From: a virus
Reading direction: 5' to 3' (one strand)
IMG/VR virus record: IMGVR_UViG_3300025849_002389
Coordinates: 1-37,984 of that record
DNA: 37,984 nt
The notes under the pieces were generated by a model. That model worked only from the letters and a program-made list of their open reading frames with translations. It was not told the DNA's origin and searched no databases. Of the stretch, positions 6,171 through 24,500 are shown in pieces. How positions within the stretch are numbered: the stretch's first letter is position 1; every line of letters begins with the position of its first letter. The translations under genes and the position numbers were made by a program.

Positions 6171-6191
6171 ATGGATAGTTTAGTGTATAAT
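6163..6191 (+). promoter_or_regulatory. Sigma70-type promoter for hldE, predicting a leaderless mRNA
   Basis: TTGACT (6163-6168), a 17-base spacer and TATAAT (6186-6191). Predicted initiation, seven bases after the last T, is at 6198, the A of an ATG whose reading frame gives the family N-terminus of HldE. The promoter overlaps the Nudix stop codon and the first nine codons of the longer hldE frame. Confidence 0.55.
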
Positions 6192-6197
6192 AATAGC

Positions 6198-7334: not shown

Positions 7335-8146
7335 AAATTTTAATTACAGGTCATAAAGGATTTATTGGTCAAAATCTTACATTTTATTTACAACACGAAC
7401 ACGAACTTTTTGGATACGAATGGCAAGAAGAACATTTACCCGAAGTAGAAAACTTCGATTGGGTTATTCACACTGGTGCTATTAGTAGTACTACTGAAAC
7501 CGATGTAGATAAAGTTATGCTACAAAATTACGAGTTTTCAAAGTGGCTAGTTAATCAATGTAATACAAAAGGCGTAAATTTTCAATATGCGTCGAGCGCA
7601 AGCGTGTATGGTACTAATACCGATTTTAACGAAGATGCACCTAAACAACCACAGTCGCCATATGCGTGGTCAAAATATTTATTTGATAGATGGCTATGGC
7701 AACAAAACCATAACGTTGTAATTCAAGGATTTAGATATTTTAACGTCTACGGACCACTAGAAGATCACAAAGGCAACATGATGAGCCCTGTAAGTAAATT
7801 TATTAAACAGGCATCGGAAACTGGAAAAATTGAGTTGTTCGAAGATAGCGATCAATATGTAAGAGACTTTATCTTTGTAGGTGATGTTTGTGAAGCACAT
7901 AAACAGATGTTAGAAAATAAAAAACCAGGGCTATATAATATTGGAACTGGAAATACTACAAGTTTTCAAGAAATTGCTAATTTAATATCTAAAAAATATG
8001 ATGCTAATATTAATTATATTCCAATGCCTGAGAAGTTAAAAGGGCAGTATCAAGAATATACTTGCGCAGACACAAAAAAATTAAGTACAGTAACAGATAT
8101 TAAATTTGCAACAGTAGAGGAATATGTAAATGAATCAACCAACTAG
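7331..8146 (+). CDS. hldD: HldD-type ADP-heptose 6-epimerase
   Basis: 271 residues of extended SDR type. A Rossmann motif GHKGFIG lies at 7-13, ASSASVYG at about 87-94, and the catalytic YAWSK (Y111, K115). The segments FRYFNVYGPLEDHKGNMMSP, RDFIFVGDVCEAH, GLYNIGTGNTTSFQEIA and IPMPEKLKGQYQEYTCADTK are those of HldD rather than of GalE-like epimerases. HldD inverts C6 of ADP-D-glycero-D-manno-heptose to the L-glycero form used by LPS heptosyltransferases. It is about 40 residues shorter than enterobacterial HldD. It overlaps hldE upstream (4 bases) and the cupin gene downstream (17 bases), so the three are very likely one operon. Confidence 0.87.
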   Translation: MKILITGHKGFIGQNLTFYLQHEHELFGYEWQEEHLPEVENFDWVIHTGAISSTTETDVDKVMLQNYEFSKWLVNQCNTKGVNFQYASSASVYGTNTDFNEDAPKQPQSPYAWSKYLFDRWLWQQNHNVVIQGFRYFNVYGPLEDHKGNMMSPVSKFIKQASETGKIELFEDSDQYVRDFIFVGDVCEAHKQMLENKKPGLYNIGTGNTTSFQEIANLISKKYDANINYIPMPEKLKGQYQEYTCADTKKLSTVTDIKFATVEEYVNESTN

Positions 8147-8537
8147 AAAATCTGGTGTAGACCAAAAAGGATGGGGCTATGAAATGATCTGGGCCACTAA
8201 CGACAAATACTGTGGCAAGATTATGGCGTTCACTCGTGAAGGTGCAATGACAAGTATGCATTTTCACAAAGAAAAAGACGAAACTTGGTTTGTAAACAAT
8301 GGTAAATTTAAAGTTCGTTATATCGACACGTCTAATAGTGTAATGTATGAAAAAGATCTCAAAGAAGGTGATGTATGGCATAATCCCCCTTTACAACCTC
8401 ATCAGTTAGTTTGTCTTACAAAAGAAGGTAGTGTTACAGAAGTAAGCACCGCTGATTCAGTTGAAGACAATTACAGAATTGGTCCAGGTGACAGTCAAGT
8501 TACTGATAACCATAACAAACTTGCATCACAGACATAA
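8130..8537 (+). CDS. Cupin-domain protein, sugar-isomerase-like
   Basis: 135 residues with a single cupin barrel. Motif 1 reads H44-x-H46-x4-E51-x6-G58 (MHFHKEKDETWFVNNG), and motif 2 is GDVWHNPPLQPHQL with H91, so all four usual metal ligands are present. The KSGVDQKGWGYEMIWA opening resembles small cupins of the mannose-6-phosphate isomerase type and relatives in sugar clusters. Its position in the hldE-hldD operon, with GAGGAA before the ATG and a 17-base overlap with hldD, argues for a role in handling a sugar or sugar nucleotide. No specific reaction can be assigned; epimerase, isomerase or sugar-binding functions are possible. Confidence 0.75.
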   Translation: MNQPTRKSGVDQKGWGYEMIWATNDKYCGKIMAFTREGAMTSMHFHKEKDETWFVNNGKFKVRYIDTSNSVMYEKDLKEGDVWHNPPLQPHQLVCLTKEGSVTEVSTADSVEDNYRIGPGDSQVTDNHNKLASQT

Positions 8538-8544
8538 TAACTTA

Positions 8545-9114
8545 TTATTTTATTGCAGTAGGTAAAGATTCAGCAAAGGCCCAAAGGTTGTTAAACACTT
8601 GGGTCTTTTTCTTTAGTGGCCTATTAGAAAATGTATTTAATTTAGTTAATGTTTCGTTGCCGTGCCCTGATTTAACAAGTACCGGGCGTGATTTAGTTTT
8701 AATTGCACATTTAAGATCTGACATCTTATCGCCTACATAATATCCATTCTTAAACTTTACACCTAGTTCTTTTTCTGCTAATTTAAACATTCCAACATTA
8801 GGTTTAGCATAAATGTCTTCTTTAAGATTAGTAGTGCTATAATACAAACCATTGATCGATCTGCATCCGGCCTGACCTAACAAATCCATCATATGTTCAT
8901 TTACTGCATCTACTTGTTCGGCTGTCATAATATTTTTCATAATGCCGGCTTGATTAGTAAGGATTACAACGTTATATCCTTTATCTCTTATCATAGCAAC
9001 AGCTTCTAAACTTCCTGGTATTGGAATAAAGTCATTAGGGTTAGTTACATATGTGCCTAGATCTTTGTTTATAGTCCCGTCACGATCTAAACCAATTGTA
9101 GTTTGATACAGCAT
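8545..9114 (-). CDS. gmhB: GmhB-type heptose bisphosphate phosphatase (HAD family)
   Basis: 189 residues. HAD motif I is TIGLDRDGTIN (D10 nucleophile, D12 acid/base), motif II is VVILTNQAG (T and N of the TNQ triad), and the end of the fold has AKPNVGM then GYYVGDKMSDL. This set is that of histidinol-phosphatase-like / GmhB enzymes. GmhB removes the C7 phosphate from heptose-1,7-bisphosphate between the two HldE reactions. The Cys/His zinc loop that normally precedes K-P-x-x-GM is missing: the interval reads YYSTTNLKEDIY. It is read leftward, and its stop lies seven bases from that of the cupin gene. Assignment as GmhB rather than another HAD phosphatase rests on the adjacent hldE and hldD. 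AAGGA precedes the ATG. Confidence 0.82.
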   Translation of the reverse strand: MLYQTTIGLDRDGTINKDLGTYVTNPNDFIPIPGSLEAVAMIRDKGYNVVILTNQAGIMKNIMTAEQVDAVNEHMMDLLGQAGCRSINGLYYSTTNLKEDIYAKPNVGMFKLAEKELGVKFKNGYYVGDKMSDLKCAIKTKSRPVLVKSGHGNETLTKLNTFSNRPLKKKTQVFNNLWAFAESLPTAIK

Positions 9115-9126
9115 TTGTTAGTCCTT

Positions 9127-9636
9127 CTAAGTTAGTCGCTCTCTAAGTATTCTGCGCTGTAGAACAAATCTATTGTAATACTCTGTAGTCATCTTTTTAT
9201 AGTAAGTGCCTTGTTCATCTAATACTTTACTAGCATCATCTATGTCTGTTATTCTTTGAATAAAAACTATTGTATAATCGTCGTCACAAGCAGACAGTAA
9301 CCATACATCTTTATTCTGTACATTGAACGTACAATTTAAAGCGTCAACACCGCCATTAGTAACAAAGTAATGTCCGTACAATTCTTTGTTTGCTTCGGTT
9401 GCAACTACAATAACATCTAAGTCGTTGGTAAGATTATCGCTTTCAGTTGTTATTCTTGACCAAAAGTCGATTGGTGCTGCATTTGGCAGTTTAACAATTT
9501 TTAAACGATTGTTATCTAATACTGACTTAGCATATGGACACTTTTGTCCGTTAGGATCAATATATCGGCTGTTTAAACGCAGTATCCAGTTTTCTATCCA
9601 GGTTTCTAAATTGTCTAACGAACTTTTATTATGCAT
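9127..9636 (-). CDS. Hypothetical protein, 169 residues, in the sugar island
   Basis: I do not recognise the family. The N-terminal helix LDNLETWIENWILRLNSRY leads to a KCPYAKSVLDNN segment (Cys-Pro-Tyr-Ala-Lys), then an alpha/beta-looking middle (LDVIVVATEANKELYG, DVWLLSACDDDYTIVFIQR) and a basic, Tyr-rich C-terminal helix (YYKKMTTEYYNRFVLQRR). No membrane segment or signal peptide is present. It sits between gmhB and the carbamoyltransferase gene with gaps of 12 and 4 bases, so it is co-transcribed with both and probably shares their pathway. No Shine-Dalgarno is evident, and coupling to the upstream stop codon is likely. It could be an accessory subunit or a small modifying enzyme. Confidence 0.65.
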   Translation of the reverse strand: MHNKSSLDNLETWIENWILRLNSRYIDPNGQKCPYAKSVLDNNRLKIVKLPNAAPIDFWSRITTESDNLTNDLDVIVVATEANKELYGHYFVTNGGVDALNCTFNVQNKDVWLLSACDDDYTIVFIQRITDIDDASKVLDEQGTYYKKMTTEYYNRFVLQRRILRERLT

Positions 9637-9640
9637 TGAT

Positions 9641-11455
9641 TTACAAATTTTTAACTGTTATTAGTTTTCCGTGCTCCGGCAAGTACAAGAATTCTATATC
9701 ACTACTATACAACGTTCTAACAGCATCGTCAAGTGTTTCTACAAGAGGTTCGCCACCTAAATTAAAACTTGTATTAAAGATAATCGGAACACCGGTTTTC
9801 TTATAAAACTCGTTAATTAGATCATAATAGTGCGGATTCTGCTCTCTAGTAACAGTTTGAATTCGACACGTACCGTCTACGTGAATAATACTTGGAATCT
9901 TTTCTGCTACGCCTTCTTGACAATTCATAGCATACATCATGTGAGGTGATTCTTCTAATCCACGCATGTCAAACCATTCGTGTGCGTGTTCTGCAAGAAT
10001 TGACCCTGCAAACGGACGAAAGTATTCTCTACGCTTTACTTGGTTAACAAAGTCTTTACCATTAGGGTCTGTAGGGTCATACATGATACTTCTGTTACCC
10101 AATGCACGAGGTCCTGCTTCTGAGCCACCTTGAAATACTGTTACAATATTCTTATTTGTTATTAAATCGATAACGTCTGTATTAGTTACATTATCTTGTA
10201 CTTCGCCTTCATACTTTTCTACTGCTTCGTTAATTTGAATATCAGTATACGTTGGTTTAGGACCTAAATATAATGTTTCGTCTTGGTGTACTCTGTCTGA
10301 TACACCTTCTAGTGAATAATACCCCAATAGTGCCGCGCCGATTGCTGTTCCTGCATCAGAACTAATTGGTTCGACATATAAGTTAATTCCAAGATCTTTA
10401 AGTCTTTCAAGGTAAAAATAGTTTGCTACGCAGTTAAGTGCATATCCACCTGACAACACTACATTTTTATTTCCTGTTGTTTCAACTGCCTTTTCTATTA
10501 GTCTAGCAACTTGTTCTTGACTTTGTGTTTGTACTGCATATGCCATATCTCGTCTGTTTTGATGTTTAGTAATATCCGGTTCTGTTGAAGACATGTCAGT
10601 ATCTAAATATTCGTATCTGCCTTCGTTAACTAGTGCGCCATTAGGATACGTAGGCACAATTATGTTCCTATCACTAGTTGTCCAAGAACCTCCATTACCG
10701 TCAGTGTATATTGGTGGGATAGCATCGTTAGGTTTACCATAAGGAAACAGTCCCATAGTCTTGCCTGCTTCGATAGGTTGCCAACCACAGTACTGTGTTA
10801 CAGCTTCGTATGCCTTTGTAATACCTGCAGTATCGTCAAGTATTAGCTCATAAGTGCCGTCTTCCATTTCTCTTTCTGCATCTTGATCCGGAATTCTAGC
10901 ACTTACAAACGGTCCGCGACCGCCTAAATGCTTGTACACTGTATTGATTTCTGCAGGGTATTCGCAGTTAAAAATAGATTCTAGTTCCCATACAGTTTCG
11001 TCTGCGCCGCCGATACTTAAATTAATAAATGTGCCTGCGCCGTCGACAATTACAGAAGTTGCACTATCAAACCCAGAACGATAAAATGCACAAGCTGCGT
11101 GTAATTTATGATGAACTGTGCTTAAATCAATAACTTGTGGATGATTATAAATGTCAGCATTACGTTCAATTAAACCTAGTTTTCTAGCAAGACCAGTGTA
11201 CACATCGTCGCCAGTAAAGTCTATGCGGCCAGCTGTGCCTTCTAAAGTCTGTGTATGCGCTATCATTAGATAATCTATTTTATCTGTATAATCAAGAATT
11301 TTAACCATAGAAGCAAGTGGTCCGCCGTCGTATTTGTGTCTACTAATACGCTCTTCTTCTATAGCAAATACAATTTTACCATCTTTAAGTAAACATACAC
11401 CCGAGTTATGTCCTCGTGTAATTGCTGCTATCCAGCCTGTTTTTTTAGTTTTCAT
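9641..11455 (-). CDS. NodU/CmcH-family O-carbamoyltransferase
   Basis: 604 residues. The N-terminal ASKHA-type domain starts WIAAITRGHNSGVCLLKDGK and has IEEERISRHKYDGG. HHKLHAACAF (H115, H119) and VIVDGAGT (D138) supply the metal-site pattern known from TobZ-type enzymes. NVVLSGGYALNCVANY follows. The YrdC-like part near the end has the family hallmark GGSEAGPRALGNRSI, then FRPFAGSILAEHA. These enzymes use carbamoyl phosphate and ATP to carbamoylate hydroxyl groups, often on sugars. The size is typical. AGGAT precedes the ATG, and the gene lies nine bases after the glycosyltransferase gene. Its acceptor is unknown; a heptose or another glycan is the natural guess from context. Such genes are found in several marine T4-like phages, so a sugar-independent role is not excluded. 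Confidence 0.88.
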   Translation of the reverse strand: MKTKKTGWIAAITRGHNSGVCLLKDGKIVFAIEEERISRHKYDGGPLASMVKILDYTDKIDYLMIAHTQTLEGTAGRIDFTGDDVYTGLARKLGLIERNADIYNHPQVIDLSTVHHKLHAACAFYRSGFDSATSVIVDGAGTFINLSIGGADETVWELESIFNCEYPAEINTVYKHLGGRGPFVSARIPDQDAEREMEDGTYELILDDTAGITKAYEAVTQYCGWQPIEAGKTMGLFPYGKPNDAIPPIYTDGNGGSWTTSDRNIIVPTYPNGALVNEGRYEYLDTDMSSTEPDITKHQNRRDMAYAVQTQSQEQVARLIEKAVETTGNKNVVLSGGYALNCVANYFYLERLKDLGINLYVEPISSDAGTAIGAALLGYYSLEGVSDRVHQDETLYLGPKPTYTDIQINEAVEKYEGEVQDNVTNTDVIDLITNKNIVTVFQGGSEAGPRALGNRSIMYDPTDPNGKDFVNQVKRREYFRPFAGSILAEHAHEWFDMRGLEESPHMMYAMNCQEGVAEKIPSIIHVDGTCRIQTVTREQNPHYYDLINEFYKKTGVPIIFNTSFNLGGEPLVETLDDAVRTLYSSDIEFLYLPEHGKLITVKNL

Positions 11456-11463
11456 TGATAATC

Positions 11464-12441
11464 CTACTTGAGTAATAGTTTAGCTGTAGATGGCTTTGTA
11501 GCTTTATGCAAGTTTTTAATTTCTTCGATCACAAAGTCTTCAATCTCAGAAGTCATGTACATAAGACGTTCATTTGCTCGGTCAACTGATTCGTCTTGTA
11601 CAATTCGAATTGGCGAATATTGTCTAGCACCTTCTCCTAAATCAATAACTTTAAATCTGTCAGTTTCCGGATATGACACGTTAATGGGATAAGTTGATCC
11701 TAAAATTGAAACTGTAGGAACACCTAGCGAATGCGATATATGCTGACCTACACTATCGCATCCAAGAAATAAATCTGCTCCAGCAATTATTGCAGCCCAG
11801 TCTCTCAACGTTGCTCCTTCTGGTTGAGCAATATCTTCTTGCAATTCTGTTTGTTTAGTATCTATTTTTAATTCGCTCATTATTACGATGCCCCAATTGT
11901 CATCTTGTAATTTCTTAATTAAATTAATAACCGAATCATGTTCAACACTTCTTCCTGACGGATCAGATAGTATTCCGTTATGATCACCGATTCCTCTTCC
12001 AAACGGTTGAAATACAGCAACTTTATCTTTCTTTAGACCTTGCTTAACTTCGTTAATTACACTTCTGCCTGATAATTCTTCTTCTCTAGAAAGGACTATT
12101 TTTGGTAATGGTAACTCTCTAACAGATGCATTGTTTATTTCAATGTCAAACGCTTGTGCAAGGCTACATTCTTGATTAAAGTATTCCCATACACGATATG
12201 GTTCAGGACTTACTAAGTCCATGTGTTTAAGTTTATCTTGGAATATGTTTTTCTGCCACGCATCATATGCTTTAGCATCTAATAAAGGATGACCTTTATA
12301 AAACTCAGTTCCGCCTTCGCAGACAATAATAAAGTCTTTGTCGCCTGATTCCTCAGCGTATTTTTCAAATGCAGGAATAGAACAAATAACTCTTCCTGCT
12401 CCGCCATTCATAAAGAATGCTTTTGATCGTGTTGTGCTCAT
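11464..12441 (-). CDS. GT9-like glycosyltransferase (heptosyltransferase family)
   Basis: 325 residues with a GT-B outline. The N-terminal half begins FFMNGGAGRVICSIPAFEKY, the glycine loop plus helix of ADP-heptose:LPS heptosyltransferases. The C-terminal half has VAVFQPFGRG, then TLRDWAAIIAGADLFLGCDS and GQHISHSLGVPTVSILGST, matching the family pattern xDLFIGxDSGPxHLAxxLGxPTVxLFGxT. The Gly-Pro-Met-His stretch reads VGQHIS, a mild variation. The natural donor of the family is ADP-L-glycero-D-manno-heptose, precisely the product of HldE, GmhB and HldD nearby. The acceptor is unknown. Its ribosome site (AGGA, 12452-12449) is buried in a hairpin that also contains a late promoter. It heads the tightly spaced group GT9, carbamoyltransferase, unknown, gmhB. 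Confidence 0.78.
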   Translation of the reverse strand: MSTTRSKAFFMNGGAGRVICSIPAFEKYAEESGDKDFIIVCEGGTEFYKGHPLLDAKAYDAWQKNIFQDKLKHMDLVSPEPYRVWEYFNQECSLAQAFDIEINNASVRELPLPKIVLSREEELSGRSVINEVKQGLKKDKVAVFQPFGRGIGDHNGILSDPSGRSVEHDSVINLIKKLQDDNWGIVIMSELKIDTKQTELQEDIAQPEGATLRDWAAIIAGADLFLGCDSVGQHISHSLGVPTVSILGSTYPINVSYPETDRFKVIDLGEGARQYSPIRIVQDESVDRANERLMYMTSEIEDFVIEEIKNLHKATKPSTAKLLLK

Positions 12442-12442
12442 T

Positions 12443-12490
12443 AAAAAGTCCTATAAATTAATATTGCTACTAATATTTATAGGACCTTTT
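12443..12490 (-). promoter_or_regulatory. Hairpin sequestering the GT9 ribosome site
   Basis: On the minus strand, bases 12490-12475 pair with 12458-12443 (16 pairs, one of them G-U), with further partial pairing near the loop AGTAGC (12471-12466). The right arm contains the Shine-Dalgarno AGGA (12452-12449), paired to TCCT (12484-12481), and ends in five T residues one base before the ATG. Readthrough mRNA from upstream genes should fold this way and hide the ribosome site. The stem plus T-run could also act as a weak terminator. Confidence 0.6.
12474..12481 (-). promoter_or_regulatory. Perfect late promoter TATAAATA inside the hairpin stem
   Basis: Minus strand TATAAATA, identical to the T4 late consensus, lies within the left arm of the hairpin. 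By T4 spacing, initiation falls near 12468, in the loop, so the late transcript would lack the left arm and leave the AGGA site free. Confidence 0.6.
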
Positions 12491-12517
12491 GTTTTGTATT
12501 CTCAAATATGAATAGTA

Positions 12518-13159
12518 TTAAGTTGGTGGATTTAACTCGAGTATCGGAAACTCAATTTTCCAATGTTTAATAGACCCGTCATAGGTATCTCTTAGTGTAG
12601 TTAATTCAGTTTTATAAGCATTTACTAATCCCATATCTGATTCGTCAAATAAACCATCGTCGATGTCATCTTGAACAGACTCTATAGCATCGTTAATACT
12701 TTGTATAAATTCTTCATCATCGATATCATTAATGTCATACACCCACTCAAAGTTTTTTGTCTCTAAATCAAACGTCATGTTTTTAATATCGTATATATCG
12801 TCTAATGTAGGATCATCCGAATATTCATACGTGTATTCATCGCCGTTTGGCAATGTTTCTGTGTAATCCGGAATTGATACTTTACTCATAGTAGGCATAA
12901 ACACACAATGCGGGAAAATACTATCTTGTGCATCTAATTCTACAATTACTCTACATTCGTCTATTGTTCTACGTTCTTCTGCTGCTTCAGGTTCAGGTTC
13001 GTCTGACCAATGTACCGGAGCCATTACACACTCTTCATGTGTACAATATTCTATATAAAGGTATCTCGGTCCTTCATATGTGACTGTTGCTTGTCTTTTT
13101 TCTGTTGCAGTCGATACTAACGGTTCGTCGTTTATATAAAATGTAACTTGCTTTCTCAT
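12518..13159 (-). CDS. Hypothetical acidic protein, 213 residues
   Basis: I do not recognise the family. The product is strongly acidic, with runs such as DEPEPEAAEE, YDINDIDDEEFIQSINDAIE and VQDDIDDGLFDESDMG. The N-terminal part looks beta-rich (KQVTFYINDEPLV, QATVTYEGPRYLYIEYC), and the C-terminal third is probably helical before HWKIEFPILELNPP. It lies directly after the Cys-rich triplet and before the GT9 gene, preceded by its own late-like box (13191-13183) and an AAGGAT ribosome site. Small acidic proteins after tail-fibre genes often serve as fibre assembly factors or chaperones, but that is only a positional suggestion here. Confidence 0.65.
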   Translation of the reverse strand: MRKQVTFYINDEPLVSTATEKRQATVTYEGPRYLYIEYCTHEECVMAPVHWSDEPEPEAAEERRTIDECRVIVELDAQDSIFPHCVFMPTMSKVSIPDYTETLPNGDEYTYEYSDDPTLDDIYDIKNMTFDLETKNFEWVYDINDIDDEEFIQSINDAIESVQDDIDDGLFDESDMGLVNAYKTELTTLRDTYDGSIKHWKIEFPILELNPPT

Positions 13160-13182
13160 TGTTTTATCCTTTTAATACTTTT

Positions 13183-13191
13183 GTATTTAAC
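13183..13191 (-). promoter_or_regulatory. Late-promoter-like box for the acidic protein gene
   Basis: Minus strand GTTAAATAC, overlapping the stop codon of the upstream Cys-rich gene. Expected initiation near 13178 gives a leader of about 19 bases with AAGGAT before the ATG at 13159. Confidence 0.5.
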
Positions 13192-14149
13192 TATAAAATG
13201 TTATTTTAACTGCGCCATGCCCGCCACGTAGACCATTTGATCTAACACCAGCACACGGTTGTCCGCTAGTGCCTGGAACACCTACTGCACCGTAAATGCA
13301 GCCCATGTGTTCGTAACATCCGCAAGGCGACCAACTTTGCCAGCATCTCCAATGACTATTGTGGTACTGTTTTGCTAATGCTGATAATGCAATATTCATT
13401 TCGGCATATCCGTTTGATGCTTGATACTGTGACGTCGGAAACCAATTTCTTTGGTATTGTAGACATGTAACACTGTCTGATGAAAATATACCTGCCGATA
13501 TTGCTATAGTTTGATCGTGATTGTTTTTACAAATTTGATTGCAACAACACCAGTTTCTTGAACACGAAATGCCGCCTGATATATTAACGTCTCCAGAACT
13601 TGCTGGAGCAGGAACCGAACTAAACGGTCCTCTTCTATTACATACGATACCACAATATGTACCGATTGCTGAACTACAGAACTGACAACGACATGCTAGG
13701 CAACGGAATTGTGAAGTACTGGTTGTACATTGTGTAAATCCGGCATATCCTGCTTCTGATCTTGCACAGCCATTGTTACCTGAGTTAAACGCACATGCTA
13801 CTGAACAATTCCCACGGCCGCCGCAACAAAGATTGGTTGTTTGTGTTGCACACCCTGCCCAGCCACATATGTAAGTTCCGCTACATACTCGAATGTACTT
13901 TTTACTATATGCACCTGAGTTACCCGGGATACCGGATTGCGAACAGCAACACATTCTGCCGCCGCCGCCTGAAGATCCCCATACTTCTAGTACAGCGCAT
14001 CCTGTGCCTGGAGAATTCCAACAATACTGACACACGCCGCCGTCGGTTCTAGTTTGCGTATAGTAAAATACTGTACCTCTAGCGCCCTTATCAGCTCCGC
14101 GCTTTACATCTCTGTTTCTTTCTTTAATTAATGTACTTAAATTTGCCAT
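13187..14149 (-). CDS. Cys/Gly-rich adhesin-like protein, paralog 1
   Basis: 320 residues with 32 cysteines by my count. After a short polar leader (1-26) the order is: aromatic strand VFYYT, CxxC (40-43), CAVLEVWG, a Gly loop with CCC (67-69), YSKKYIRVCSGTYICGWAGC, CCGGRGNCSVACAFNSGNNG, a Cys cluster at 141-170 (FRCLACRCQFC, YCGIVC), SSGDVNISGG, a second CCC (201-203), a variable part to about 290, and the ending GVPGTSG, RGGHGAVKITFYS. The frame of strand-WG-Gly loop-YxxKxxxV-GxY-GG and final GGxGAxxITxY is that of Gly-rich C-terminal domains of phage tail fibres, here with cysteines inserted throughout. The likely role is receptor binding or fibre capping. There are no signal peptide or catalytic motifs. 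GGAAG precedes the ATG. Confidence 0.7.
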   Translation of the reverse strand: MANLSTLIKERNRDVKRGADKGARGTVFYYTQTRTDGGVCQYCWNSPGTGCAVLEVWGSSGGGGRMCCCSQSGIPGNSGAYSKKYIRVCSGTYICGWAGCATQTTNLCCGGRGNCSVACAFNSGNNGCARSEAGYAGFTQCTTSTSQFRCLACRCQFCSSAIGTYCGIVCNRRGPFSSVPAPASSGDVNISGGISCSRNWCCCNQICKNNHDQTIAISAGIFSSDSVTCLQYQRNWFPTSQYQASNGYAEMNIALSALAKQYHNSHWRCWQSWSPCGCYEHMGCIYGAVGVPGTSGQPCAGVRSNGLRGGHGAVKITFYS

Positions 14150-14164
14150 TATACTGTTTTCTTC

Positions 14165-15124
14165 CTATGAATAGAACGTTATCTTAATTGCACCGTGGCC
14201 ACCGCGGACACCCATTGATCTTACGCCTGCACAGCCAACACCGCTTGTTCCTGGCACACCCGGTGATCCAAAGTAACAACCCGACATATCATAACAGCCA
14301 CACTCTCTTGAACCTTGCCAACAAAAGTCCATTCCTGGCATTGTGTTACCTAGTCCAGCGTATGCAATTTCTAATTCTTTTCTACCTGTCGATCCGCCGT
14401 TTCCGTTGTTTGTCGGTGCTTGGTTGCGTGAGAATTGTAAACAAGTTGGGCCTTCTGCAGAGTGTATGCCAGGCGCAATTGATACATTATGTTCTACACC
14501 ACAAAGCTGATAGCCTCTACAGCAACACCAATACCTAGTACACGACCAACCGCCACATAAGTTTACATCACCAGATGATCCATTTGCAGGTACAGCACCG
14601 TTTGGACCTCTATAGTTACAAACAATACCACAACCGTTGGAGTTTTCGCTTGCACAAAAGCAATTGCATCTTAAACAACAATACGGTGTACCACTAGTAA
14701 TACATCTAGTGTATCCGCCATACCCTGCTTCTGATCTTGCACAACCATTATTACCCGAATTAAACACACATGCTACTGAGCAATTTCCCCTGCCTGAATA
14801 ACAAAGTGACATAGCAGGAGTAGCGCATCCTGCCCAACCACAGATGTAAGTTCCGCTACATACTCGAATGTACTTTTTACTGTAGCCAGGAGCATTGCCT
14901 GGCAATCCTGCCATAGTACAACAACATTGACGGCCGCCTGATCCTGCTGCTCCCCAAACTTCTAGTACAATACAACCTGTTCCTGGAGACTTATAACAAA
15001 ACTGGCATTTACCGCTTTGAGTATCAAGAAAGGTGTAATAAAATACATTGCCGCCTGAAAGTGTTTCAACTGACTGTAACTTTTTATTAGCCCTATCATT
15101 TAATAATTTTTGTAAACTTGCCAT
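14165..15124 (-). CDS. Cys/Gly-rich adhesin-like protein, paralog 2
   Basis: 319 residues, 33 cysteines by my count. It shares the whole layout of its two neighbours, including LEVWG, a Gly loop with CCC, YSKKYIRVCSGTYICGWAGC, GRGNCSVACVFNSGNNGCAR, CGIVCN, SSGDVN, WCCC, and RGGHGAIKITFYS. It is the most divergent copy around residues 140-165, where it reads GTPYCCLRCNCFC in place of the TTSTSQFRCLAC of the others, and it has its own sequence from about 205 to 275 (GVEHNVSIAPGIHSAEGPTC and NGNGGSTGRKELEIAYAG). The leader (MASLQKLLNDRANKKLQ) is helical and polar. AAGGA lies upstream; the gap to the preceding gene is only 15 bases. Function by analogy with Gly-rich fibre tips is receptor recognition; this is inference. 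Confidence 0.7.
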   Translation of the reverse strand: MASLQKLLNDRANKKLQSVETLSGGNVFYYTFLDTQSGKCQFCYKSPGTGCIVLEVWGAAGSGGRQCCCTMAGLPGNAPGYSKKYIRVCSGTYICGWAGCATPAMSLCYSGRGNCSVACVFNSGNNGCARSEAGYGGYTRCITSGTPYCCLRCNCFCASENSNGCGIVCNYRGPNGAVPANGSSGDVNLCGGWSCTRYWCCCRGYQLCGVEHNVSIAPGIHSAEGPTCLQFSRNQAPTNNGNGGSTGRKELEIAYAGLGNTMPGMDFCWQGSRECGCYDMSGCYFGSPGVPGTSGVGCAGVRSMGVRGGHGAIKITFYS

Positions 15125-15139
15125 ATTTAATTATTTTCC

Positions 15140-16105
15140 TTAGTTATAGAATGTTACTTTAATTGCGCCGTGGCCGCCACGTGTTGGGTTAGCTCTAACG
15201 CCGCCGCATGGTATACCGCCTAATCCTGGTACTCCTGCACCATTATAGTAACACGATACAAATTCGTAGCAAGCACATTCTCTATTGCCGCTTGACCAGC
15301 AAGGATAAAACTGAGGTAGTGTTTTACTTAATGCTCTTACACCTAATTGTGCTGTCATACGTCCTGAATGCGTAGCACAGGTACACCACAACATAGGAGC
15401 TGAAGTATTTTTAACTCTTATGCAAGGTGAACATTCTTGACCATGTGTTCCTGGAGATAATGCTAGTGTGTATTCGTAACCACACGATCTACAGTTATAA
15501 CACGTACAGAACCTAGTACAAGAAATGCCGCCTTCGATGTTTAGATCTCCGCTGGATGCAGCAGCAAAGGTAGCACGGACGCCGCCGTATTTATTACATA
15601 CAATACCACAATATGTACCAATTGCTGTACTGCAATATTGGCATTGACACGCTAGGCAACGGAATTGTGAAGTACTAGTTGTGCATCTACTAAAGCCGCC
15701 GTATCCTGCTTCTGCTCTTGCACATCCATTATTACCTGAGTTAAACACACATGCTACTGAGCAATTTCCTCGTCCGCCATAGCACAAGCTAGTAGGCTGC
15801 ACAGAGCAACCTGCCCAACCACATACATAACTTCCGCTACATACACGAACAAACTTTCTACTGTATGCACCTGGATTTCCTGGAACGCCCGGACCGGCAC
15901 AGCAACACATTCTGCCACCTCCGCCTGAAGATCCCCATACTTCTACAACGGCACATCCGCTGCCTGGTGATTTCCAACAGAACTGACAGCGACCAGTTGC
16001 AGTATCTGTATGAGTGAAGAAGTAAGTGCGTCCGCCTTTGATGTCTTCTTCACCGCGATTAAATACTTGTGCTCTATCGTTTAGTAATGTTGATAAGTTA
16101 GCCAT
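15140..16105 (-). CDS. Cys/Gly-rich adhesin-like protein, paralog 3
   Basis: 321 residues, 34 cysteines by my count, the first of the three to be transcribed. Its leader MANLSTLLNDRAQ nearly equals that of paralog 1, and both share TTSTSQFRCLAC and TYCGIVCN, while its own C-terminal block differs (GVPGLGGIPCGGVRANPTRG against GVPGTSG..CAGVRS). From 195 to 275 it has a unique stretch rich in paired cysteines (RFCTCYNCRSC, QECSPC, WCTC). The ending GGHGAIKVTFYN keeps the final strand of the Gly-rich fold. It follows the 703-residue fibre gene by 12 bases and has AAGGGA before the ATG, so the fibre and the triplet are one transcription unit. Confidence 0.7.
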   Translation of the reverse strand: MANLSTLLNDRAQVFNRGEEDIKGGRTYFFTHTDTATGRCQFCWKSPGSGCAVVEVWGSSGGGGRMCCCAGPGVPGNPGAYSRKFVRVCSGSYVCGWAGCSVQPTSLCYGGRGNCSVACVFNSGNNGCARAEAGYGGFSRCTTSTSQFRCLACQCQYCSTAIGTYCGIVCNKYGGVRATFAAASSGDLNIEGGISCTRFCTCYNCRSCGYEYTLALSPGTHGQECSPCIRVKNTSAPMLWCTCATHSGRMTAQLGVRALSKTLPQFYPCWSSGNRECACYEFVSCYYNGAGVPGLGGIPCGGVRANPTRGGHGAIKVTFYN

Positions 16106-16117
16106 TAGTTTCCCTTA

Positions 16118-18229
16118 TTAGCTCATGAAGACCTTCCAGTCTCCGCCTCTGTATATAAATTCTACTTTAGATTTTGCAACGTTTAATACTAAGTTGTCTG
16201 CTACACCATTAATCGTTCTGCCATTTCTTGCAACAGTACAATTGTATGCACCAAAATCAAGACCGTCTGCAATAACAATTGTTCTACCGTCAGTACCAGT
16301 AACTGGTAACGTAACAGTCATTGTACCGCCTCGTGATATAATGTACTTAGCGTCAGCGTCGGGTGCTGTAAAGCTTGATGTTCTGTTGTTATAACCGATA
16401 ATACCTTGCGATCCGCCATTAGCAACAATTGCGCCGCCAAAGAATGCTCGTTTAGCACAACTAATACCGCCTTCTACACGTAATGCACCTGTATCACCAC
16501 TACTGTCAGTTGCATCTGTTGTATTTGTAACGTCTACTCGACTGCTTACATTAACAACACTAAAGCTTGAAGTTCCAGTTGATGTTACGTTACCGCTTAG
16601 GTTGCCGCTTACGTTACCTGATAAGCTACCATAGAAGCCGCCTCCGGAATATACACGTTTAGCAATACTAGCACCACCTTCACAACGTAGTATACCTGTA
16701 TCGCCTGTAGTATTAGTAGCGTCAGTAGTACCGGTTATATCAAGAACACTTGTAAATGTAACTGTACTGTTTGCTTGTAATGATGTAAATCTACCTGTAC
16801 TTCTAGTAGTAGAACCGATTGACATGTTGTTAATTGATCCGCCACCGGCTGGCGATAGTGTAACTGTACCTGAGCCTGTTGGACTCAGTGTTACGTTAGC
16901 ACCTGGACTTAGTGTAACTGTTGAGTTAGCAGTAAGTGTAGTAAATGCACCTGTGCTTCTTGATACGTTACCAATTGCGCCAACAAATCCGCCTCCGGAA
17001 TATACTCGTTTAGCAATACTTGCTCCGCCTTCTACTCTTAAAATACCTGTATCGCCAGTTGCGTTAGTAGCTTCTGTTGTACCTGAAATATCAACTGTTG
17101 AGTTTGCGTTTAGTGTTGTAAATGCACCTGAACTGCGTGTTGAGCTACCAATTGCAGTATTTTGAATACTGCCTGCGTGTAGTGCTCCTGCTATACCAAC
17201 ACCACCTGCTACAACTAGTGTACCAGTTGTAGTGTTAGTTGATGCTACATTTTTAGTAAACGCTACATCGCCATTTGCGCCTAAATTAGTAAATAATGCT
17301 GTACTACGAGAAGAACTACCAATTGGAGTACCTTGTAAACTTCCTGCATAAACTGCACCACTAATACCGGCGCCGCCTGTAACAATAATAGTACCACTTG
17401 TAGTGCTTGTACTAGTAGCATTAGCTGTAAATGTAGCCGAGCCGCCTGCTGTTATTGAAGTAAATGCGCCTGTACTTGGATTTGACGCACCGATACTCAT
17501 ATTAGTAATGCCACCAAGTGTGTCAGAACTAATATTTAAAGTTCCGCCAGCGCCAATAGTAACATTGCCAGCTGGATCGATAGTTACTGAAGAACTAGAG
17601 CCTGTTGGACTAATGTTAACTGTTTGATTATTTGCTGTGAAGTTAATGTTACCCGGAAAGCTTGTTGCCTTGCCGGCTTCACCTAAGCTTACTGAGCCCG
17701 ATGCAGATGCTAGTGTTAAATCGCCTGTAGGACGGATAGTTGCCTGTGCCCCTGGTTGAATTGAGACGGAGGATTGAGGACTAATGTCAACTATGCCTGT
17801 TCCTGTTGGTTTAATTTCTACATTATTGTCTAACGGATTTAATTCAACTTTACCATTTGCATCTAATAAATCATTAAACGTAACAGGAAGTTCAAATACA
17901 GTAGGACCAGATAATGCTGCTGTTAATACATAGTTAGTACCATCTGATGTAATAGTGTAAGTGGAGTTAGTTGGAATATCAATTTGATTCCCTAACGGTA
18001 CTGGAACACCATTACCTGTAATTATTCCTGCTGCTGTTGCAATAGTAACAGAGCCGTCTGTTGCGTTGTAAAATGTTTGTCTGCTACCAGGGAAAAACAC
18101 CGGACTTACCATCGTTACAGTATAACCACTAGTACCAGTTAAGGAAATAATTCCTCCAGTAAAAGCATAGGTAAATGTAGTTTCTTCTGTTATCACCAGT
18201 GTTTGCGGTGCTGTATTATAACGTGCCAT
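16118..18229 (-). CDS. Repetitive tail-fibre-like structural protein, 703 residues
   Basis: The N-terminal 110 residues (ARYNTAPQTLVITEETTFTY to NYVLTAALSG) look like a beta attachment domain. Residues 110-245 are low-complexity beta with alternating hydrophobics (VELNPLDNNVEIKPTGTG, VTIDPAGNVTIGAGG), as in beta-helical fibres. Residues about 271-605 hold five related units built on TGxLxVxGGxxIAxxxYxGxxxG, mostly followed by IGSSTRSTGAFTTL. The last 90 residues (KYIISRGGTMTVTLP to FIYRGGDWKVFMS) form a different beta domain ending in a GxxW pattern common in fibre-tip domains. It is Ser/Thr/Gly-rich and has almost no charged residues in the shaft. I recognise the unit style from structural proteins of marine T4-like phages. 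GGGGA precedes the ATG. Confidence 0.8.
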   Translation of the reverse strand: MARYNTAPQTLVITEETTFTYAFTGGIISLTGTSGYTVTMVSPVFFPGSRQTFYNATDGSVTIATAAGIITGNGVPVPLGNQIDIPTNSTYTITSDGTNYVLTAALSGPTVFELPVTFNDLLDANGKVELNPLDNNVEIKPTGTGIVDISPQSSVSIQPGAQATIRPTGDLTLASASGSVSLGEAGKATSFPGNINFTANNQTVNISPTGSSSSVTIDPAGNVTIGAGGTLNISSDTLGGITNMSIGASNPSTGAFTSITAGGSATFTANATSTSTTSGTIIVTGGAGISGAVYAGSLQGTPIGSSSRSTALFTNLGANGDVAFTKNVASTNTTTGTLVVAGGVGIAGALHAGSIQNTAIGSSTRSSGAFTTLNANSTVDISGTTEATNATGDTGILRVEGGASIAKRVYSGGGFVGAIGNVSRSTGAFTTLTANSTVTLSPGANVTLSPTGSGTVTLSPAGGGSINNMSIGSTTRSTGRFTSLQANSTVTFTSVLDITGTTDATNTTGDTGILRCEGGASIAKRVYSGGGFYGSLSGNVSGNLSGNVTSTGTSSFSVVNVSSRVDVTNTTDATDSSGDTGALRVEGGISCAKRAFFGGAIVANGGSQGIIGYNNRTSSFTAPDADAKYIISRGGTMTVTLPVTGTDGRTIVIADGLDFGAYNCTVARNGRTINGVADNLVLNVAKSKVEFIYRGGDWKVFMS
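16415..17419 (-). repeat. Five shaft repeats in the 703-residue fibre
   Basis: Five units with TSGTIIVTGGAGISGAVYAG, TTGTLVVAGGVGIAGALHAG, GDTGILRVEGGASIAKRVYS (third and fourth, nearly identical) and GDTGALRVEGGISCAKRAFF. The third and fourth units encode the same GGASIAKRVYSGGGF stretch near 16,990 and 16,640, pointing to recent duplication. Confidence 0.75.
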
Positions 18230-18248
18230 TCTTTATTTCCCCTGTCAA

Positions 18249-18569
18249 TTACGTTGTTGATGTTTCAATGCCGTACACTGTAACACCTACACTACCTTGA
18301 TTAGCTCTTGCTACTATATTTAGTCCGCCTTGCATAACTAACCCTGTACGTTCAAACACACCGTTTGGAATAATTACAGTTTCATATTCTATAAATTCCT
18401 CCGGGTTTGGTGTTGACGTTGTTGCCATTGCTAATCTAAGTGTAATAGCGGTAGCATTTCTGTTTGTAATAGACACATTTGCTACTGCATATGTGCCCAC
18501 AGGAACGGTGTACACAGTTGTATCTGTGTTCGCCGTTAAGTCCTGTACTCCTAATCTTCCTGTTGCCAT
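18249..18569 (-). CDS. Small beta-rich virion-associated protein, 106 residues
   Basis: The sequence opens MATGRLGVQDLTANTDTTVY, then VPVGTYAVANVSITNRNAT, EFIEYETVIIPNGVFERTGL and ends VGVTVYGIETSTT. I recall this kind of single beta-sandwich protein (LTANTDTTVYTVP, VxxxxxNRxxT, PNGVxERTGL) as a frequent small gene in tail-fibre regions of marine and other tailed phages; its molecular role is not established. It is predicted to be all beta, without charge clusters or membrane segments. GGAG precedes the ATG at 18569. It lies between the giant fibre (19 bases) and the 703-residue fibre (19 bases) in the same direction, so it may decorate or connect fibres. Confidence 0.7.
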   Translation of the reverse strand: MATGRLGVQDLTANTDTTVYTVPVGTYAVANVSITNRNATAITLRLAMATTSTPNPEEFIEYETVIIPNGVFERTGLVMQGGLNIVARANQGSVGVTVYGIETSTT

Positions 18570-18588: not shown

Positions 18589-21500
18589 TTATCTGCTTAA
18601 AAAGTATCCAAGTGCTACCGGCGCACCGTCGACACCACCTGTAAAGTTCATCTTCGCTTTAATATTTAGCTGTCCGCCGCTTGTTGTTGTTATTTCATCG
18701 TTTGCAATGAATACCGTACCTGCGGTTAGTGTGTTAACGTTCAAACTACTCTGACCACCACCAATCTGTGCTGTAATGTAACTCTTAATTGCACGTTGTG
18801 TTGGAACAATGCTATCACTGTTTTCAGTAAAGAATGGATCTGTACTAAACTGTGTAACAATTGCCGATCCAATGCCTAGTCCTAAACCGTTAATTTGTAG
18901 TGACTGTAGTCCTGCTAAGTTAAATGCATCTGCATCTAGTGTCGCAGTACCTGTCGACTGTTGTACACCAAACAATCCGCCAACATTAAAGTTACCGTCT
19001 TGGTCAGTACTTGTGTAGAACACTCGTCCGCCGCCACTACTTAATTGCTGTGATTCAATGTAAGATGTTGTAATATCCACAAATGGATAGTTTGTTTGAG
19101 CTTTGTTACCAGTACCAATGTACAAGAAGTCATGTCCTGTTAGACGTACTTGCGAGTACTTGTTAGTAGTAGTAATTAACGTACCATCTTTCGGTGCTTT
19201 TAGTACATCCAATCCTGGACTGATCTGTAATGTAGCAGTGTAGCTACCTTCTTGACCAATAACATTACTAATTGTAACCAATTTGTAGTACGAATCTGGA
19301 ATGTTTGCAAACTCAACGTTTGAACCAGGTTCTGGTAGTTCAAACAAGTTACGTACTGCAATAAACGTACTTGGCTGATACAAATCAGCATTACCGTCAC
19401 CACCTAGTTCTGCTGTAGCACTTGTGTATCCAGTACCTCTATTAGTAAACGTTGGCTGTCCTAGCACACCGTTTCTAATTCTTGGGTTAATGTTAGCATC
19501 AACAGTTGCGCTCGGATCAGTAACAGTAACTAGTGGTCCTGCTTGGAATGTTGATCCAATCATGTCAGGACCTAGAATAGATTCAACACTGTAGCTTGCT
19601 CCGCCACTTAGTAAGCTTACTTCAATTGTGTCACCAGTTACGTCTGATACGTAGTAAAGTATTTCACTATTAAGTGCTGCTGTAACTAAGTCTGTACCAT
19701 CAAACGTAATTGGTTGACCAACATACATGTTGTCTGTTGAATCAAGTTCAATAGTGTTAGGCGCTGTAACAGAAACTATACTACCAACTGGGTAACCCGA
19801 ACCTGGTTCAAGTAGTGTAGTAGCAATTAGTGTTCCGTCTTCTGCATAACATCTACCAATTGCCTTAGCACCTGTCTTGATCTTATTAGCTGTTGTATTA
19901 GCATCGCTTGTTAGTATTACCCAGGTCGGAACACTATTTGGGTTACCAAAGATTGGTGTTGACCAGCTTGCTGTTCCACTTAGTAATTCTTCTGTCCAAG
20001 TTACACCATCTGCACTAATTGCACAACTTGCTACGCCGTCGCATACTGCTAAGAACATGCCTTGTCCGTATGCTACTCTAGTCCATCCAGTCGTACTAAT
20101 GTTGTTAAGCGTATTGCCTACAGTAAACCAGTTAGCACCAAAGTCATAGCTAATTGCATATTCGCCTATTGTCGATATTGCAACAAAACGTCCGTTACCC
20201 CAAGCAAGGCTTGTCCAGGTGCCTGATGCACTTGGCATGTTACCACCTTCTGTCCAAATAATACCGTTAATACTAACAGCAGTGTAACCGTCAGTATTGA
20301 TTGCAACAAAACGTCCTGCGCCGTATCTAACAGCGCTAAATGTGCCGCTAGCTGGAGTAGTAATTGTACGCGATGTCCAAGTATTACCGTTTGTAGAAGA
20401 TTGCGCCCCTCCGGCTCCGCCAGTGCCGCCTACAGCAACAAATGTGCCTTCACCATATGTAATGCCCGCATAATGCGATGCAGTAAACGGATTGCCTGCT
20501 GTCCAGTTAGCGTTTGCTGCACTAGTAGTTGCTAAGTATGCATTAGTAGTTGTACCATTTGCAACAGCTATCCATTTAGCATCTGCATCAACAATTTCAA
20601 CGGTCGGTGTAGTTGTGTATCCTTCACCAAACAATGGGTTATCATCTTCGTCTGTGTCGATTAAGATGCTTGTAATGCCTTTGTTTTCAGTTGTTGCAAT
20701 AACAGTTGCTTGTGTGCTTGCGCCACCGCCGCTAATAGTAACAGTTGGTGGAGACTCGTATCCACTACCTCTTGTTTCAATAACTACTTCTGTTAGCTTA
20801 TCTGTTGCAGCAGTAACAGTTGGTGCTTGTGCGTAACCTGCACCAGTACTTGTAATAATGATGTTTTGTATAGCACCATCTTTAACTGTTGCTACGGCTG
20901 TAGCACCACCGCCACCTAGTGTTGCTGTAAACACAATAGTCGGAGGTGTAGTATAACCTGTGCCGCCTTGGACTACATTTACTTTTGCAATCTGTGTAGG
21001 TCCTGGTAAACCGATGCTGTTTAGTTCGCCTAGTTCTGCTTCAAGTACTGCACCCGAGCCGCCTAGTCCGCCAACAACTGCTCTTGCAGTTGCGCCTTGG
21101 CCGCCGCCGAATGTTACATCACTCCAGTTAGCACTTGCTGGTAATGCACCGCCTGTAGTCCAAGTTGTACCATCTAACGAGTAGTTAGTAGATGCTCCAG
21201 CGCCGCCATCAATAGCAATAAATCTATTATCAGCATAGATACCTGGACCAAAATCAATTGCATCAGCAGTTGAAATACTTGCTGCTGTAAATCCAGGTTT
21301 CGCATAAGTAATTGCAGGCTCAACAGTATAACCAGTTGTTAAGTCTAGCGAATTTTCTGCAACTTTACCTGCAATAACATTGTCAAATCCTGCTGCATAA
21401 AGTGTTACATTTTGCCCACTAGTATTAGTTAGTGTAATATCAGTGCCACCTACTTCGTCACTTACTGTAAAGGTATTACCTGAAACAATTGCAGTTACAT

Positions 21501-24500
21501 AGTAAACATCACTTGGACTATCACCTCTGTCTAATCCGCCAATTGCTTCATCAAAATAAACTGGCATATCAACATAAAGTGTTGTAGTATCTGCAACTGT
21601 AATTACATTGCCAGTTGCACTAGTTGCTGTAGCAGTTAGGTTGTCAAAACTTGGTTTGTAAACAGTACAGTTCTTAGTACCGTTATTGAAGTTAATAACG
21701 TTACCATATTGTCCAACGCCTGTACCTGCTGTAACTTGTACTCTCATACCGTTGTATGCATCACCTAGTGCAAAATCAGTTGCAGCTAGAGTAATATGCA
21801 CTGGGCTACCGCCTTGTGCAACGTTCTGTGCAATAACATAATCTTCGCCACCTACCGTAGTACCGTTGTCAACGTCAATAATACGAGATTCAACAAGTGC
21901 CTGGTCGCGGAATTCATCGGCGACAGTTGCTGCGTTAAATCCTGTACCACTAATTGCGTACTGTGCATTAGTGTATCCAGTACCTGCGTTACTAAATTCC
22001 ATTGCTAGAACTTCTTGTTCGCCGTCTGTCTGAATACCGTATACTAGTGCGTTTTGTGACAAGTTGTCTACATCTGCAACAATTGGTTGTTCACCTAAGT
22101 CAGTACCTTCAGCAATAACACCAAATGTACCATAAGAACTGTTACCGTTTGTAGCACGAATACGTCCACCTAAGTCTGCGATATAACCTGCATAGTTGTA
22201 GTATGCGAACACTGATACAAGCTCTGTTAGTGAGTTGTTACCACTACACCATACACCAATACCGTCACTTAGAATCTGTGTAAAGTCATTTGATACAACA
22301 GATCTGTTTCCGCCTGCGTGTAGAGCACCGTCAATCTTGTTACCAACACATCCAACACCAAATGTTGACACATTTTGTACATAACATGATTTGTTAGTTA
22401 CCCAAGCTTCTGTATCCCAAGGACCAAAACCTGGATCAAGTGATACATATGCTCCGCCTGTTGGACGTCTTGTACCAAACTCATTCTTTTCTGACAAGTT
22501 GCCAAGTAATCCGTTAAATGTCATGTTACGTGCGCCTGTTGCGTTACGTACATAGAACATATCTGAATACTGAGATCCGTCAACTGCATTAACATATAGT
22601 CTTGCAGCTCTCAATGAGTGATAATTGCCTGGATACTGTAAGTCATATACAATAGCGTCAATATATGCTGCCATATCACGTTTACAAGCCGTTTCGTCAA
22701 AGTCGTAACTTGCAGTCATTGTCCCTGTCCCACCTGCAAATGTGTTAATACTTTCTCCGCCAGGCGTGTCAGTAAGCTCAACATCTGTAGTAGAAGTAAC
22801 TGTCGACACATAATACGTAGTACCTGCTACAATTCCTCCAAATACTGTTCCTGAGAACACAATTGGATCATCGAGTTGCAAGTTATGTGCACTAGTAAAC
22901 GATGCAGTAGCCGGTGATCCGTTTAAGCTTGTAACAGTTCCACCGAAGGTTGCCTTAATCCAAGCTGTTGCTTCGCTACCTAAGAAATCTTTGTTAGCTT
23001 TAAGTGCATCAACTGCATTAATTGTTTCTCTGTCGTTAAAGTATGTAACAGTACCATGGAACTCTGGTGTTACGTTAGCACCTTGTTCTGTAATGTTAAT
23101 TACAATGTCCATTAAGTTGTTAATGCGTACTTTTGCTTGACTATTATCGTTTCTGCCACCGTAGTTTGTAGATGCACCTTCACCTGTAACATATGTTGTT
23201 ATAAAGTTTTTAAGTTCTCTGTATGCTTGTACTGTTGCTAAACGCTGATCTTTGATAACTACATCGGCTTGTGCTCCGCGGTAGTATGCTAGAGCAGCGA
23301 CAGTTGTTAAGTAGTTGGAGTTTAGCATCATATCTTTGCCTACTGCATCAATAATCAGCCCAACATCTCTTTCACATTTAGCTTGATTGTATACAAGTGT
23401 TGGGAATTTTGTAGCAATATAATCAGTAACAGCTTCTTGCATAGCAGCTTTAGAACCTTGAATGTTAGTAAACTGCTGTTTAAAGTTTGCTGTTACATTT
23501 GTTAGATCCGGTGTTGCAATACTTTCCCAAATAAGTTCTGTTCCGGTTACATCCTCAAATGGTGCAATTGGGCCACCGAAATATGTTGATAAAGTAAATG
23601 ATGTAGTAGTTGGAACTGTTTTAACAATATATAATATTTCGTCTGCTATAACTTCAGACCCTATTACTAAACCATGTGCAGTGCTTGTTGTAATTACATT
23701 TGATGCAATATCGGTTACAGTTATTTGTGACCTACGTATAACAGCTTCTGCGCTTAGTCTATTGTACAGATTTGTCATTAATTCTTCAACACGGCTCACA
23801 GTGCCGGCATCTCCGATTATCTGCATATCATCTCTAAGTTTTGGAGCTATTTTTGTTTGTAGTGATCCTGGGCTATCAATAGTGTTTGCTGCTAATGACA
23901 TTGCAATAAATTTAACGTGGTCGTATGCTCCTAGAGTTGCTTGCAATTCATTATCACCAATTTGTAAAGTATTTCCACTGTAGTAGTATTCAACTGCCTT
24001 TGTTGTTGCATATTCTCCGCCAAAGGTTAAGTCATAACGCAATGCATCAATAATATAACCAGTGTCTCTTCTGCACTTATCTTTATTGTAAACAACTTCT
24101 GGATAATTTAGTGTAATAAATTCTATTGCTTCTTCTGCAATATATTCTTTATTTTCCCAAATAGTCGATGCACCTACAATAACTGGATTACTTTCGAAGT
24201 TATTATCAACCCATTTCAGTGTAGGTAGTGCGCCGCCGTCGATGTAACTAGTAATATCAGTTACAAGCTGTTTAAATGCTTCGTTAGGAGCAGTTAGTGC
24301 AATACGTCTTACTTTCTCAGCCAAGAAGTTCATAGCGCCAATAGTTGCTGATTTTTCAAAACGTAGTGTCTTAAGTGCTGAAGGAATAGCTCTGTAATAT
24401 GCCATGCCTGCTTTAGTTGTTGCAAAGTTTGATCCAGTGACAATATCACGTGCAAGTGCGTCAACAATTAATCCTACATCTCTGCGACAAGTTGCTTGGT

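Follow-up and report, generated by a model that had tools for sequence, protein, structure and literature searches.

Described Gly-Rich Fibre Tips and Cysteine-Rich Virions

Phage proteins are synthesised in a reducing cytoplasm, and most of them are poor in cysteine. The tail fibre tips closest to the proteins considered here are those of cyanophage Pam3 and of phages of the T2 and Salmonella phage S16 type. The Pam3 protein gp24 is a trimer composed of helix, TNF-like and Gly-rich domains, and it is folded by the chaperone gp25 (PMC9608196). The gp38 protein of the S16 and T2 type is built as a polyglycine sandwich carrying hypervariable loops (PMC12892980, PMC9608196). The Pam3 fibres are mentioned in PMC10329688, by citation of other work, as being linked to the baseplate by disulfides.

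The cysteine contents described for Cys-rich virions are considerably lower than those reported below. In the Agrobacterium phages Milano and 7-7-1, cysteine accounts for 1.4% of the residues of the proteome and for 2.1-2.6% of those in structural proteins. The tail of Milano contains a disulfide network, and reduction is needed for its contraction (PMC10811340). Values of 1.4-2.1% in these phages have already been called unusual, whereas the predicted tips of the family described here keep about 10%. Tip adhesins with such a cysteine load, found in T4-like cyanophages and in many environmental phages, have apparently gone unreported.

The Cysteine-Rich Gene Trio and Its Neighbourhood

The window, which is the whole stretch of DNA analysed from a marine virus of bacteria (37,984 nt, IMG/VR record IMGVR_UViG_3300025849_002389), contains three tandem minus-strand ORFs with ATG starts, spaced by 15 bases each. 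The trio and the adjoining genes are as follows.

9641-11455, minus strand: carbamoyltransferase (PF16861 and PF02543), in a position common to cyanophages
11464-12441, minus strand: GT9/heptosyltransferase-like protein (PF01075 above cut-off)
12518-13159, minus strand: probable fibre-tip assembly chaperone, 213 aa (phrog_9740, E = 7.1e-7)
13187-14149, minus strand: copy 3 of the trio, Cys/Gly-rich putative fibre-tip adhesin, 320 aa, 32 Cys
14165-15124, minus strand: copy 2 of the trio, Cys/Gly-rich putative fibre-tip adhesin, 319 aa, 33 Cys
15140-16105, minus strand: copy 1 of the trio, Cys/Gly-rich putative fibre-tip adhesin, 321 aa, 34 Cys
16118-18229, minus strand: fibre/shaft protein, 703 aa, Cys-poor and repeat-bearing
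18249-18569, minus strand: tail-fibre protein, 106 aa (phrog_11338)
18589-30624, minus strand: probable fibre, giant protein of 4011 aa with 0.5% Cys (judged by position and by a similar size in a syntenic contig)
30661-37923, minus strand: tail fibre protein, 2420 aa (phrog_9851 tail fiber, E = 3.2e-112)

These ORFs and their cysteine counts agree with the sequence-only reading, which had described three tandem proteins of about 320 residues with 32-34 cysteines and had likened them to Gly-rich fibre tips. Cysteine constitutes 10.0-10.6% and glycine 13.8-17.2% of the trio proteins, while the sheath fragment, neck and fibre proteins of the same window contain 0-0.5% Cys. Copy 3 is 58% identical to copy 2, and copy 1 shares 51% with copy 2. 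The base composition and chance were ruled out as the source of the cysteine load by gene shuffles and by the conservation of the cysteines: base-shuffled trio genes encode 9.8-11.2 Cys (SD of about 3; a maximum of 24 in 2000 shuffles). With regard to a possible recoding of TGT and TGC, both are used at ordinary levels in the genes adjoining the trio.

The strand and Gly-loop motifs quoted earlier, including YSKKYIRV and GTYICGWAGC, are found in the trio, copy 1 carrying the variants YSRKFVRV and GSYVCGWAGC. The CCC, CxC and CxxC patterns that had been pointed out do occur, but at 10% Cys only CCC is modestly in excess (1-2 observed versus 0.3 expected), while CxC (4-5 versus 3.1-3.5) and CxxC (2-6 versus 3.1-3.5) are near chance. 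Thus, a metallothionein- or ferredoxin-like spacing is absent from the trio. A metallothionein-like metal binder was rejected on this spacing and on the tryptophan content of 1.6-2.5%. The content of histidine is low (0.9-1.6%).

Directly after the trio lies a gene that probably encodes a fibre-tip chaperone, as judged from its relatives. The members of phrog_9740 in the same slot of S-SSM7 and Sf-FS3 match PF16778 (Phage_tail_APC) above the cut-off, as well as PHROG families of tail fibre assembly; the 12518-13159 protein of the window itself gave no match to PF16778. The GT9-like protein is 50-53% identical to cyanophage proteins occupying the same slot. On the other side of the trio, the C-terminal 110 residues of the 703-aa protein resemble S-CAM1_104 and S-CAM3_099, which are placed immediately upstream of their own trios, and the 106-aa gene is syntenic in P-SSM2, S-CAM1, S-CAM3 and AG-345 phages. 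Giant proteins are encoded in series upstream of the tip genes, with 4011 aa (18589-30624) and at least 2420 aa (30661-37923) in the window and 4017, 2616, 1573 and 1738 aa in a sister contig.

A Family of Cysteine-Rich Proteins in Cyanophages and Environmental Phages

A tblastn search with the trio proteins against 50,697 phage records returned nothing useful because of low-complexity filtering and divergence, and relatives had to be reached through the neighbouring genes. The GT9-like gene and the 106-aa fibre gene as queries led to T4-like cyanophages, and Gly-rich proteins with 7.6-11.6% Cys were found in the same slot of P-SSM2, S-CAM1, S-CAM3, S-SSM7, Sf-FS3 and AG-345-F15. The genes concerned are PSSM2_304 and _306, S-CAM1 105-107, S-CAM3 100-102, S-SSM7 114-116 and Sf-FS3 97-99; the annotated cyanophage records label their products as hypothetical.

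Pattern scans of IMG/VR added 79 loci of the S-SSM7 type, six of the S-CAM type, one of the P-SSM2 type and the locus sister to the window. In all, 274 family proteins (103 non-redundant) from 93 loci were gathered from the Cys-rich ORFs; since Cys-rich peptides were part of the search patterns, this count is biased. The bias does not touch the lack of Cys-poor copies within the 93 loci, where a profile search over all ORFs matched 275 frames and the Cys content of the matched part was 7.9-12.5% in every one. Exactly three copies are present in 90 of the 93 loci. The family was not found in bacterial genomes with one query of the S-SSM7 type, a search that detects close relatives only.

The S-CAM and S-SSM7 members match phrog_4205 strongly, and of the trio proteins copy 3 matches it weakly (E = 5.6e-4 over residues 38-319); phrog_35878 represents the P-SSM2 branch of the family. 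Neither PHROG family carries a function label. In open-licence papers on Cys-rich, disulfide-bonded or Gly-rich cyanophage fibres, no description of such a cysteine load was found. The earlier remark that no common fibre-tip family is so rich in cysteine therefore holds for the families in the literature, but a widespread family not yet described there does exist.

Since shared composition inflates scores, a profile was built without the lineage of the window, and each protein was compared with 200 shuffles of its own sequence. The scores were 7.8-14.5 SD above the shuffles overall, with 10.3 SD for copy 1, 10.6 SD for copy 2 and 14.5 SD for copy 3 (10.3-14.5 for the window proteins). With the composition correction of HMMER, copy 3 alone stays clear (20.8 bits). 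In hhalign, the trio and the family were aligned with a probability of 96.6% over the core W.VP...EVWG..G.GG..CCC..G.PG..G.YS.K. Thus, the homology of the trio to the phrog_4205-like family goes beyond shared composition. The trio also shares with the family a cysteine content of at least about 8% and the slot between the fibre genes and the chaperone/GT9/carbamoyltransferase cassette.

The Predicted Fold of the Putative Tip Proteins

The Pfam family PF21722 (Gly_rich_2) is matched above the curated cut-off by S-CAM1_107 (40.4 bits), S-CAM3_102 and S-SSM7_114, all from the same slot, but not by the window proteins; the Pfam search of the trio gave no match to any family. Another Gly_rich_2 protein of P-SSM2 contains just 0.4% Cys, so cysteine is added to the fold and is not a component of it.

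The AlphaFold2 model of copy 2 has low confidence (pLDDT 39.6), and its core finds phage proteins with Gly-rich domains. The relative encoded at L031:5001-5792 folds well (pLDDT 79.8, pTM 0.78). In a Foldseek search its best PDB matches were the Pam3 fibre structures 7ypx (E = 9.4e-8, TM 0.51) and 7yfw (E = 2.6e-6), followed by the Bxb1 tail tip and the Gly-rich domain of ALK, and in BFVD it matched many Gly-rich tail proteins. The S16 and T2-type gp38 proteins, which likewise place a Gly-rich lattice with variable loops at the fibre tip, are absent from its top 50 structural matches. PDB sequence searches with the family gave no direct match and no detectable similarity to the Pam3 fibre. A Pam3-type fold of helix, beta-sandwich and Gly-rich lattice is thus seen in the model of the relative, and the low-confidence model of the window protein hints at the core only.

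The comparison with Pam3 gp24 and gp25 (PDB 7YPX, 7YFW) extends over the full length of the predicted fold of the relative (TM of about 0.5), and Pam3 also has the Gly-rich distal domain and a dedicated chaperone gene (PMC9608196). It differs in having a single fibre gene instead of three, and the paper on its fibre (PMC9608196) makes no mention of cysteine, which accounts for 10% of the trio.

The placement among Gly-rich fibre tips proposed by the sequence-only reading is consequently strengthened by synteny, by the leave-out profile and hhalign results, by the Gly_rich_2 matches of three cyanophage relatives (though not of the trio) and by the structural match of a relative to the Pam3 fibre. 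No unrelated fold was seen, the good model being that of the relative and not of the window protein itself.

Conservation and Likely Role of the Cysteines

Tryptophan and cysteine are the most conserved residue types in the alignment columns of the S-SSM7 lineage. Of the Cys positions of this lineage, 20 show a conservation of at least 98%, whereas roughly nine others vary. Between the window and its sister trio (79-84% identity), 94 cysteines are kept and 10 changed, a higher retention than that of other residues, with dN/dS of 0.13-0.15. Judging from these substitutions, purifying selection acts on the trio cysteines. Phages of cyanobacteria and many environmental phage sequences share these cysteines, so they are probably functional, and their most likely task is the cross-linking of the tip outside the cell.

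The features of a disulfide-rich protein with complete intrachain pairing, even counts and paired gain or loss, were not observed. The number of cysteines is even in 53 proteins and odd in 50, the totals per trio are even in 21 cases and odd in 26, and joint changes of variable positions are rare (of 435 pairs, one at p = 0.015), which makes full pairing within the chain unlikely. Some of the cysteines are probably free, interchain or metal-bound.

The reading preferred here, with a probability of about one half, is that the trio represents Gly-rich receptor-binding tips of a long tail fibre that are stapled by disulfides after lysis. The tips would be of the general type of Pam3 gp24 and S16 gp38, each with a short N-terminal docking helix, a beta-sandwich, a lattice of Gly-rich loops and variable tip loops at the end. 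We infer that the proteins enter the virion as assembled tips: the chaperone, encoded by the next gene downstream, would assist their folding in the still reduced state in the host cytoplasm and would also deliver them, and after lysis their cysteines would oxidise in oxic water to form disulfides within and between the tip chains. The outcome would be a very stable adhesin with loops still free to vary. In Milano and 7-7-1, cysteine likewise locks parts of the virion covalently, which for the trio is only proposed; in those phages it amounts to 1.4-2.6% compared with 10% in the trio, where it is confined to the predicted tip.

Alternatively, the same Gly-rich adhesin may bind Zn, Cu or Fe, including Fe-S, through its cysteines, the metal serving stability or the exploitation of metal-uptake receptors according to the Ferrojan-horse idea. 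This is conceivable but rather unlikely. The lack of even-count bias and of co-change is expected without obligate intrachain pairs, CCC is slightly above expectation, and iron-binding domains in phage fibres are discussed in the literature; the chance-level CxC and CxxC and the scarcity of histidine speak against it. Substitutions at conserved Cys positions point in both directions. Histidine is the commonest replacement at column 532 (8 of 13) and the second commonest at column 222, and it is 2.7-fold enriched among the Cys replacements of the S-SSM7 lineage, but Tyr, Asn, Trp and Leu are over-represented too and substitute for cysteine as often, which leaves this evidence undecisive.

A tip in which some cysteines stay free, bonding covalently with thiols or disulfides of the host surface or binding in a redox-switched manner, appears improbable. 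It would fit the independent gain and loss of variable Cys positions, the absence of a parity rule and the location of 23 of the 30 cysteines outside predicted strands, and tail action in Milano is reportedly under redox control (PMC10811340). Free thiols are, however, readily oxidised in oxic water, and no host partner is known. Among papers on light-dependent adsorption as a redox switch, none with data on phages of the trio family was found.

A more elaborate variant is a redox-active or covalent adhesin, in which a part of the approximately 30 cysteines per chain would be reactive, thiol-disulfide exchange would lock or switch the attachment, and the paralogues would make up a fixed three-part tip. 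It is more doubtful still. If true, it would account for the cysteine saturation of unrelated tip proteins in the same slot and for the recurrence of three copies across separate lineages, both described below.

It is very unlikely that the trio encodes soluble products of the infection stage, such as a metal or redox buffer, adjoining the fibre genes by happenstance: a search for published virion proteomes of phages carrying the family found none (the S-CREM2 proteome belongs to a different cluster), but the fold of the relative matches fibre tips, several lineages have fibre genes on the upstream side and a fibre chaperone gene on the other, and the trio has been transferred together with the fibre cassette.

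Copy Number and Mobility of the Tip Cassette

In the phylogenetic trees the copies group by phage lineage. One ancestral triplication was rejected by AU tests of first-, second- and third-copy clades (p-AU of 6.5e-41, 1.3e-53 and 2.4e-8), with the caveat that gene conversion between copies gives the same tree picture. According to the trees, at least the lineages of the window and S-SSM7 either acquired their three copies independently or had them homogenised; the separate origin of the S-CAM group is less certain (support 72/86). The P-SSM2 type holds two family copies flanking a Cys-poor gene, which weakens the reading of the trio as a strict heterotrimer.

The same slot is occupied in AG-345-P14 by a 282-aa protein with 9.2% Cys and in AG-345-O18 by proteins of 758 aa (9.6% Cys) and 290 aa (10.7% Cys). 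These were rejected as relatives of the trio (z of 0.3-1.2; hhalign probability of 0.5% for the 290-aa protein of O18). Their IMG/VR relatives keep 31 of 31 cysteines of the 290-aa protein and 24 of 26 of the 282-aa protein. An equal cysteine load in unrelated proteins of the same slot points to selection on cysteine itself at the point of contact with the host. The model phages P-SSM2, S-SSM7 and S-CAM1 carry the family and allow direct tests of a disulfide, metal or redox role of cysteine in cyanophage attachment. In other marine phages, Cys-rich proteins (9-11%) without detectable relation to the family and placed before the GT and carbamoyltransferase genes are seen at L011 5117-5965, at L013 4017-6293 and 6290-7162, and in L117 and L118.

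The top matches of the sheath and neck proteins of the window are not cyanophages but the jumbo myophages PA5oct, Atu_ph07, Phosso and Vibrio 2.275.O, whereas the tip cassette matches Kyanoviridae; the sheath family in the sister contig is phrog_10581. The window is therefore a mosaic, with minus-strand backbone genes of the jumbo-myophage kind at 3-806 and 2117-2869 and a minus-strand region of the T4-like cyanophage kind at 9641-18569. The cassette, to which the GT9-like and carbamoyltransferase genes belong, is thus mobile between phage lineages, and its exchange among a jumbo-type phage and T4-like cyanophages marks it as a host-range module. A cyanobacterial host is plausible for the window phage.

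Other Genes around the Putative Tip Genes

Genes for a kinase/nucleotidyltransferase, an epimerase and a phosphatase resembling those of ADP-heptose synthesis lie at 6171-12441, beside the GT9-like transferase and the carbamoyltransferase, these ADP-heptose-like calls being made mostly by the look of the sequences. The sugar genes adjoining the tip could modify a sugar of the host surface or the fibre itself. In S-SSM7 and Sf-FS3, the chaperone gene is directly followed by a gene similar to 2OG-Fe(II) oxygenases (DUF6445; L009 6658-7317 and L012 5893-6537), annotated in Sf-FS3 as prolyl 4-hydroxylase, and its product might hydroxylate fibre proteins. A further Cys-rich product of the window, a protein of 111 aa with 8.1% Cys and a weak match to HNH endonucleases below the cut-off, is encoded on the plus strand at 924-1259, between the genes of the sheath and the neck region.
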